From: Natrinema pellirubrum DSM 15624
GTDB taxonomy: Archaea > Halobacteriota > Halobacteria > Halobacteriales > Natrialbaceae
NCBI RefSeq assembly: GCF_000230735.2
Contig: NC_019962.1
Location: forward strand, 3,348,001-3,412,000
DNA length: 64,000 nucleotides
Direction: 5' to 3'
Shown here: positions 11,803 through 15,695 of the stretch, one piece after another
Layout of the letters: the number at the start of each line of letters is the position of its first letter
Position numbering within the stretch: position 1 is the first letter of the stretch
Translations under genes and position numbers: made by a program
The notes under the pieces: generated by a model
What the model was told of the DNA's origin: nothing
The model's database searches: none
Seen by the model: the letters and a program-made list of their open reading frames with translations, nothing else

Positions 11803-11809
11803 CTTTTCA
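11803..11809 (+). promoter_or_regulatory. TATA-like box of micro-operon copy 1
   Basis: CTTTTCA is centred about 28 bp before the ATG of the 26-residue ORF at 11834, the spacing expected for a leaderless haloarchaeal transcript. Confidence 0.4.
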
Positions 11810-11833: not shown

Positions 11834-11914
11834 ATGGACTCCGGTCGATCACGACTCGACGACGAAGCGAACGGTCCGCGCCTCGAGTCGGCGACGGGCG
11901 GTGATCGCACATGA
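11834..11914 (+). CDS. 26-residue ORF, first gene of micro-operon copy 1
   Basis: ATG GAC TCC ... ACA TGA encodes 26 hydrophilic residues beginning MDSGRSRLDDEANG. Its TGA overlaps the ATG of the following 54-residue membrane protein by the four bases ATGA, and a TATA-like box lies 28 bp upstream, so the transcript probably begins at this ATG. The same arrangement, with the same length of exactly 26 codons, is found 365 bp further on. It may be a real micro-protein or a leader that couples translation to the membrane protein. No family recognised. Confidence 0.5.
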   Translation: MDSGRSRLDDEANGPRLESATGGDRT

Positions 11915-12075
11915 ACCGGCGGCGACTGCGTCCGCTGTATCTGGTCGGTATCGCGCTCAACGCGATCGCGTTCAGCTATGCGGTCACGAACGGTACGTGG
12001 CTGTACGCCGGCGCGTTCGCCCTCGTCGCGGGCTATCTCGTCGTTCGGCTGCGGATGGTATCCACCGACGGCTGA
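11911..12075 (+). CDS. 54-residue two-helix membrane protein, copy 1
   Basis: A small protein starting MNRRRLRPLYLVGIALNAIA with two predicted helices (about residues 8-26 and 29-46) and ending RLRMVSTDG. The cytoplasmic-looking N-terminus is very basic. It is a clear paralogue of the protein at 12276-12440: both have MN(R/E)RRL, P(L/V)YL(V/L)G, a second helix ending RLR and a short acidic tail, and both are 54 residues long. Translationally coupled to the preceding 26-codon ORF. Function unknown. Confidence 0.72.
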   Translation: MNRRRLRPLYLVGIALNAIAFSYAVTNGTWLYAGAFALVAGYLVVRLRMVSTDG

Positions 12076-12167
12076 GTCGCTGCGCCGCCGATACTCGAGG
12101 ACTGCCACCGACGGGGACACGTCGCTCGCGAGAGCGGAACGCTCGGCCGACGGGTGCCGGTCCGCAG

Positions 12168-12176
12168 ATGTTTACC
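12168..12176 (+). promoter_or_regulatory. TATA-like box of micro-operon copy 2
   Basis: ATGTTTACC is centred about 27 bp upstream of the ATG at 12199. Its spacing matches copy 1, although the surrounding bases differ, so both units seem to keep their own promoter. Confidence 0.45.
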
Positions 12177-12198
12177 CCCGTCAGTCGAACGAACGGGT

Positions 12199-12279
12199 AT
12201 GAGCGGGGTTCGATCGGTACGTGTGGTGGTCGACGATAACTCGAGCGACGGATCGACGATGGAGGGACCGTCCGAATGA
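12199..12279 (+). CDS. 26-residue ORF, first gene of micro-operon copy 2
   Basis: Encodes 26 residues beginning MSGVRSVRVVVDDNSSDG and, as in copy 1, its TGA overlaps the next ATG in ATGA. Sequence identity to the copy 1 peptide is weak (shared SG.RS start and Asp/Ser-rich body), while length, promoter spacing and stop-start overlap are conserved. That pattern suggests selection for the arrangement, with a relaxed peptide sequence. Confidence 0.5.
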   Translation: MSGVRSVRVVVDDNSSDGSTMEGPSE

Positions 12280-12440
12280 ACGAACGGCGGTTACTGCCGG
12301 TGTACCTGCTCGGTGCCGCCGGTAGCGCGTACGTGTTCTGGTACTACGTCTCGGCGAGTGCGTTTCTGCCCGCGCTCGTCTTCGGGCTCGTTACCGCGGC
12401 GTTCGTGGCTCGATTGCGGATACTGACCGCCGACTCGTAG
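12276..12440 (+). CDS. 54-residue two-helix membrane protein, copy 2
   Basis: Starts MNERRLLPVYLLGAAGSAYV, has two predicted membrane helices (about residues 7-25 and 29-46) and ends RLRILTADS. Paralogue of 11911-12075 with the same length and topology. It starts within the stop of the 26-codon ORF. No recognised family; possible roles include a partner subunit of a larger membrane complex or a membrane stress peptide, neither of which the sequence can settle. Confidence 0.72.
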   Translation: MNERRLLPVYLLGAAGSAYVFWYYVSASAFLPALVFGLVTAAFVARLRILTADS

Positions 12441-15057: not shown

Positions 15058-15188
15058 ACGTGACGTGTCGACGCGCCATCACCTAATAATATCGGACCGC
15101 TACCACGATCCCCGAAGTGAGGTAACGTTTTTCGTCTCCACGTCGTTCCCCCGGGTATGCACACACCGACGGGACCGGAGGGGCGGCG

Positions 15189-15695
15189 ATGACGGCGGAG
15201 GACTCGATGGGGACGGACGACGTCTGGGACGACCTCCTCGAGGACGCGGCGGGAATCGCGGAAGAGTACCGCGAGGAGGGATGGGACGCCGTCGTCCTCG
15301 AACCGACCGACGTCTCACCGGTCGAAAGCGACGACCGGACCGGGCTCGACGTCGCGGTCTCGCAGTCGGCGTACGAACTCGTCGAAGGCCTGATCGAGGA
15401 CGGCGACGTGACGATTTCCGCGGCCGACGTCTACTATCGGCCCCTCGAGGAGGGCGACGGCGATCGGCGGGTGGCGCTTGCGGTCGAACGCGACGAGGAA
15501 ACCGAGACGGCCGTCCTCGTCCCGCTGGTCTACGACGTCTCGGCGTGTCGATCCGTCTTCGAAACCGCGCTGCTCGAGGCAGAGTTGCTGGTTCACGTCG
15601 CGGCCGATCCGGTCGCGGGCTGGGTGACGTTCTCCCACGACGATCCCTCGCTCTTCCTCGAGGAGTCGGACGTGCAGGCCTGGAGCGAGGAGTAA
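15189..15695 (+). CDS. Conserved haloarchaeal acidic protein, unknown function
   Basis: A 168-residue soluble, very acidic protein (MTAEDSMGTDDVWDDLLEDA...), with alternating strands and helices and a late block HVAADPVAGWVTFSHDDP. A second in-frame ATG at 15207 (MGTDDVW) could be the start; both lack a ribosome binding site. It converges on nadC with 6 bp between stops. I cannot name the family with confidence. Confidence 0.65.
   Translation: MTAEDSMGTDDVWDDLLEDAAGIAEEYREEGWDAVVLEPTDVSPVESDDRTGLDVAVSQSAYELVEGLIEDGDVTISAADVYYRPLEEGDGDRRVALAVERDEETETAVLVPLVYDVSACRSVFETALLEAELLVHVAADPVAGWVTFSHDDPSLFLEESDVQAWSEE

Follow-up and report, generated by a model that had tools for sequence, protein, structure and literature searches.

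The DNA analysed here is a stretch of 64,000 nucleotides (the window; G000:C1:3348001-3412000), which we placed in Natrinema, family Natrialbaceae, with N. thermotolerans and N. mahii as the nearest named records. The initial annotation had described two units of the same plan in it (box, ATG, 26 codons, ATGA, 54 codons), and both were found at the positions given below. In each unit a TATA-like box precedes a short lead-in ORF (uORF, opened by the uATG), and the TGA stop of this ORF overlaps the ATG of a gene for a 54-residue microprotein. A distance of 365 bp separates the uATG of unit A from that of unit B.

11804..11807, forward strand: TATA-like box of unit A (TTTT), 27-30 nt before the uATG; the T-run also peaks there family-wide
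11834..11914, forward strand: lead-in ORF of unit A with 26 codons before its TGA, predicted to be leaderless, translated as MDSGRSRLDDEANGPRLESATGGDRT followed by the stop; uATG and NTGA kept in orthologues; ATGA overlap at 11911-11914
11900..11906, forward strand: Shine-Dalgarno (SD)-like GGTGATC in uORF A, beginning 11 nt before the microprotein ATG
11911..12075, forward strand: 54-aa microprotein of unit A, predicted to fold as a two-helix membrane hairpin, ancestral-type copy under purifying selection
12171..12174, forward strand: TATA-like box of unit B (TTTA), 25-28 nt before the uATG
12199..12279, forward strand: lead-in ORF of unit B with 26 codons before its TGA, predicted to be leaderless, translated as MSGVRSVRVVVDDNSSDGSTMEGPSE followed by the stop; ATGA overlap at 12276-12279
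12261..12265, forward strand: SD-like GGAGG in uORF B, read from the sequence
12276..12440, forward strand: microprotein B, 54 aa, Natrinema-specific paralogue

The microproteins are paralogous, as had been proposed, with 45% identity between A and B, which are the only two copies in the source genome. A search profile of 17 rows found the 54-mer in 114 of 125 Natrialbaceae genomes, representing 25 of 29 genera. Beyond the family it is rare, with matches in only five sampled genomes of the class, and plasmid records gave one weak, unannotated match and nothing else. No Pfam or NCBIfam model scored above its curated cut-off for the 54-mer, in keeping with the suspicion that annotation misses the module. 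The 54-mers are coding genes, as initially supposed: pN/pS over close pairs was 0.24 (like all pN/pS values here, an uncorrected proportion from short sequences and non-independent pairs), indicating purifying selection. Among 45 diverse members Y10, F36 and R46 were invariant and G13, A20 and A33 nearly so. AlphaFold predicts a two-helix hairpin with helices at 3-27 and 30-53 (pLDDT 85, pTM 0.57). We found no convincing relative among solved structures and no fold match at E <= 0.001; the PDB matches were generic (best E 0.47), and the attempt to read a function from the fold was abandoned. The ends of the 54-mer are positively charged, suggesting that both are probably cytoplasmic. Tentatively, we regard the microprotein as most likely a small subunit or a regulator of a membrane complex. 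The 54-mers represent an undescribed family of two-helix membrane microproteins.

Most Natrinema genomes carry both copies in tandem. In the tree all 28 B copies formed one clade (support 0.987) and all 47 Natrinema sequences a second (support 0.968), which makes the tandem pair a duplication within Natrinema, in the ancestor of the genus. Since a box, a uORF and an overlap also accompany copy B, the duplication probably took in the entire unit; this agrees with the earlier view of a module duplicated as a unit, and its conservation extends far beyond the source genome. In many genera the microprotein gene is flanked by an isochorismatase gene, upstream and on the same strand, and by a 4HBT thioesterase gene, downstream and on the opposite strand, but several genera have other neighbours and no functional link is claimed. 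Distant microprotein homologues (E 1e-6 to 1e-9) were detected at L138, L139, L140 and L141, as a second site in some genomes. They mostly carry a promoter-like box directly before the start, without a lead-in ORF, and may be a sister family. Outside the window, near G000:C1:3304539 on the reverse strand, a 71-aa two-helix membrane protein is GTGA-coupled to a 297-codon ORF; it has no Pfam match and is unrelated to the microprotein by profile comparison.

The ATGA overlap alone was rejected as evidence, because a second codon AAC after the start (ATGAAC, Met-Asn) makes the TGA by itself. GC-rich DNA is also rich in open frames, and when no box is required the window holds 61 instances of the plan, as would be expected if it arose by chance. 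For this reason a frame test was used on 140 family copies with flanking DNA. Each promoter-spaced ATG (25-36 nt after a T-rich pentamer, defined by a loose regex, upstream of the microprotein) was traced to its stop in any frame. Ninety of 101 such ATGs stopped exactly in NTGA on the microprotein start, 4 stopped at most 12 nt from it and 7 elsewhere, whereas control ATGs from the same regions ended at NTGA in 26 of 76 cases, close to the chance expectation of one in three (Fisher p 1.5e-14). Collapsing by genus, paralogue and distance, a crude step as the loci are not phylogenetically independent, left 33 of 43 at NTGA (binomial test against 1/3, p 7e-9). Within groups, uORF length has changed in frame at least 21 times. 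A chance origin of the plan is refuted by the frame test, and we give it practically no weight.

The full set of lead-in ORFs comprised 96 loci from 14 genera, including six with an in-frame ATG but without a promoter-spaced box. It contained 24 lengths, from 9 to 67 codons, with the uATG 26-200 nt from the microprotein start. The microprotein start codon was ATG in 80 of these loci, GTG in 14 and TTG in 2; the overlap of TGA with an RTG start, as in the mycobacterial type, was seen in 94, the other 2 having TTG. Overlap or a very short stop-start gap, as in haloarchaeal termination-reinitiation pairs, was also found, and in four loci of other genera the uORF stop was 5-7 nt off the exact overlap. 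The uATG was kept in 46 of 49 Natrinema copies, and the three without it (L025 copy A, L026 and L030) still have an open frame. Natrinema uORFs had 26 codons in 33 of 46 cases and otherwise 17, 22, 25 or 32. The assertion that the ORF has exactly 26 codons therefore stands for the source genome and these 33 uORFs; elsewhere it gives way to the range of 9-67. The coupled pair is conserved outside the source genome and its frame is preserved, two points on which the initial annotation had said that it could fail.

The lead-in peptide itself drifts. With the start and the last five codons excluded, uORF pN/pS was 1.03 compared with 0.24 for the microprotein, and the uORF peptide substitution rate equalled the synonymous rate of the microprotein. 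GC content at the three codon positions was flat in the uORF (.71/.65/.68) and showed a strong coding pattern in the microprotein (.62/.45/.84). No codon run or motif was shared by uORF peptides across genera. The architecture is conserved and the peptide is not (pN/pS 1.03 against 0.24; 9-67 codons), as in the mycobacterial type. It is very improbable that the 26-mer is a functional peptide (an antitoxin, partner subunit or toxin) of a two-protein module: its presence is conserved and the 26-codon length prevails in Natrinema, but its substitutions are neutral, its length ranges widely, it has no codon-position GC signal, and in several genera it is replaced or missing. Two conserved protein products, as in a toxin-antitoxin pair, were not found, the uORF peptide being neutral and variable in length. 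We rejected the 26-mer as a conserved peptide on pN/pS, length spread and codon-position GC, and with it the earlier picture of a length-fixed partner. Its neutrality, its variable length and its absence from some genera argue against the toxin-control and small-complex roles put forward for it, and in favour of a lead-in for translation coupling. The comparison shows that selection has maintained the uATG, an uninterrupted frame, the overlap in NTGA and the SD-like motif, with the peptide as a by-product.

Across the 96 loci the T-run peaked at -29 to -26 before the uATG (T 0.73-0.92 per position), and in most loci the T-rich box was centred about 28 nt before it. This spacing is as expected for a leaderless transcript, suggesting that transcription starts at the uATG or a few nt from it. 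Leaderless transcripts make up 72% of the coding transcripts of Haloferax (PMC4983044). SD-like matches of 5 nt or longer preceded 62 of the 96 coupled starts, compared with 6 of 96 in a control window; the motif lies in the upstream ORF near the stop, as in haloarchaeal termination-reinitiation, and is not universal. GGTGA stood exactly at -11 in 40 of 96 loci.

Some family members serve as natural controls. Loci such as L058, L059, L068, L083, L088, L089 and L094, with the promoter immediately at the start of the microprotein, have neither a coupled uORF nor an SD-like match; loci of this kind overall are without a uORF and mostly without an SD match. At L056, L057, L060, L079, L080 and L129 the place of the uORF is taken by the 3' end of a longer gene, also via NTGA. 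In the first five of these the longer gene may be related to Pus10, which it resembles by eye. Both sets of loci suggest that selection acts on ribosome delivery to the microprotein start. A separate arrangement was seen in one genus, where a 5-codon ORF (MPVSI or MQVPI, each followed by a stop; L053 and L055) lies 17 nt before the microprotein start and ends on it in TAATG; its promoter is not obvious.

The uATG might also be incidental, falling at the transcription start while the microprotein is initiated de novo, with the uORF frame kept to spare the microprotein out-of-frame ribosomes. Frame and overlap would likewise be preserved in this case, and haloarchaea can translate 5'-UTRs that have no SD (described in PMC3986360). 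Selection could just delete such a uATG, yet 46 of 49 Natrinema copies retain it. Moreover, coupled starts are enriched in SD-like motifs, and the SD plays no part in Haloferax when ribosomes initiate de novo in a 5'-UTR (PMC3986360). We consider an incidental uATG improbable.

Somewhat less improbable, though still unlikely, is a regulatory leader of the attenuator or arrest-peptide type, in which the translation rate or the peptide of the uORF would respond to some condition and thereby modulate or repress the microprotein. In most genera the uORF has been held in place and the promoter has not been moved next to the gene, and 5'-uORFs in E. coli alter downstream expression to varying degrees (PMC4965119). 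However, the peptide is neutral and shares no codon run or motif between genera, and neither conserved structure nor a regulatory codon run, as expected of an attenuator or riboswitch, was found. The six leaders that were folded showed no structure beyond shuffles (z -0.75 to 0.93) and there was no Rfam match in the leader, so RNA structure or a riboswitch was rejected there.

We favour, with a probability of about 0.78, a unit in which a leaderless ribosome-delivery uORF feeds the microprotein by termination-reinitiation. Comparison between genomes shows its conservation, its frame, the neutrality of the peptide and the SD-like enrichment. Each unit would consist of a promoter, a leaderless lead-in ORF and the microprotein gene, and we infer the transcription start, translation and coupling as follows. 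Judging from the box spacing, the transcript would begin at the uATG or within a few nt of it. Ribosomes would initiate there without a 5'-UTR, translate the short ORF (26 codons here) and terminate at the TGA in ATGA. With help from the SD-like motif near the uORF stop, reinitiation on the overlapping ATG would then yield the 54-aa microprotein. The last step is modelled on Haloferax, in which termination-reinitiation has been shown: ATGA-overlapping pairs are strictly coupled there, and reinitiation is in many but not all cases more efficient with an intragenic SD, which is not essential (PMC6728339).

A scan of the window located the same device 3 kb downstream of the microprotein units, before a DUF7529 gene.

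15157..15192, forward strand: second lead-in uORF, 11 codons (MHTPTGPEGRR, then the stop), with a T-rich box, before the DUF7529 gene
15189..15695, forward strand: DUF7529 (PF24373) gene, ATGA-coupled to the 11-codon uORF

This lead-in was conserved in 29 of 29 Natrinema genomes, with a uORF pN/pS of 1.35. Its consensus is near MTTRTRPEGxR, with GGAGG inside. Outside the window, a Na+/H+ antiporter gene (PF00999) at G000:C1:3510557 on the reverse strand also has a coupled lead-in ORF, of 19 codons at this site and 18-19 codons across Natrinema, which was detected in 24 of 27 Natrinema loci (L234-L260); pN/pS was 1.05 for this uORF compared with 0.15 at the antiporter start. In 400 kb of the source genome we counted 10 module-like places, of which 4 (the two microprotein units, DUF7529 and the antiporter) were found again before the corresponding gene in one or both of two further Natrinema. 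The survey covered 400 kb stretches of three Natrinema genomes, and any whole-genome figure is an extrapolation. On this count the device recurs but is not common.

Leaderless lead-in ORFs could conceivably be a general haloarchaeal initiation route, in which a sizeable share of promoter-distant genes is reached through a 5' ORF of irrelevant peptide and an NTGA handover; we find this possible but doubtful. If true, it would explain how many apparently leadered haloarchaeal transcripts are translated without SD-based de novo initiation. The translation of leadered haloarchaeal transcripts is poorly understood, and for some of them a leaderless lead-in ORF offers a concrete, testable answer. 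At the present locus the pairing joins an unannotated microprotein family found in nearly every Natrialbaceae genome with an ORF that would be selected for its translation, not its product. It also carries a warning for annotation: even if a lead-in ORF is translated, it need not be a protein gene, and a microprotein that follows it is easy to overlook.

The closest known counterparts are the leaderless short ORFs of mycobacteria, which are RTGA-coupled, conserved in architecture and not in peptide, and for which ribosome delivery was proposed (Shell et al. 2015, PMC4633059), an idea restated in PMC12548453. Here too the TGA of a short ORF overlaps the next start and the peptide drifts within a conserved architecture. 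The mycobacterial ORFs were studied through measured transcript ends and ribosome footprints (PMC4633059); the Natrialbaceae device, in contrast, is archaeal and known from comparison alone, has an SD-like motif at the junction and is conserved at one gene across 14 genera. With the overlapping pairs of Haloferax volcanii (Huber et al. 2019, PMC6728339) it shares the ATGA overlap, the intragenic SD and the haloarchaeal ribosome. Those pairs, however, are two protein-coding genes, whereas the Natrialbaceae upstream ORF has 9-67 codons and a neutral peptide, so that its only visible role would be to carry ribosomes. Short ORFs also precede genes in the long 5'-UTRs of Haloferax, where small ORFs were found in 16 of 97 leaders of 150-250 nt (PMC4983044); that study covered only leaders of this length and did not report start overlap as a criterion, and the leaders described here are mostly shorter. 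In E. coli a 5'-terminal uAUG likewise opens a ribosome-binding uORF that can affect the downstream gene, but these mRNAs also have a conventional SD leader and start overlap is not their defining plan (Beck et al. 2016, PMC4965119). Our literature search, limited in coverage, returned no archaeal description of a leaderless coupled ORF combined with termination-reinitiation. Leaderless RTGA-coupled ORFs were already known from mycobacteria and termination-reinitiation from Haloferax; what would be new is their combination in archaea.
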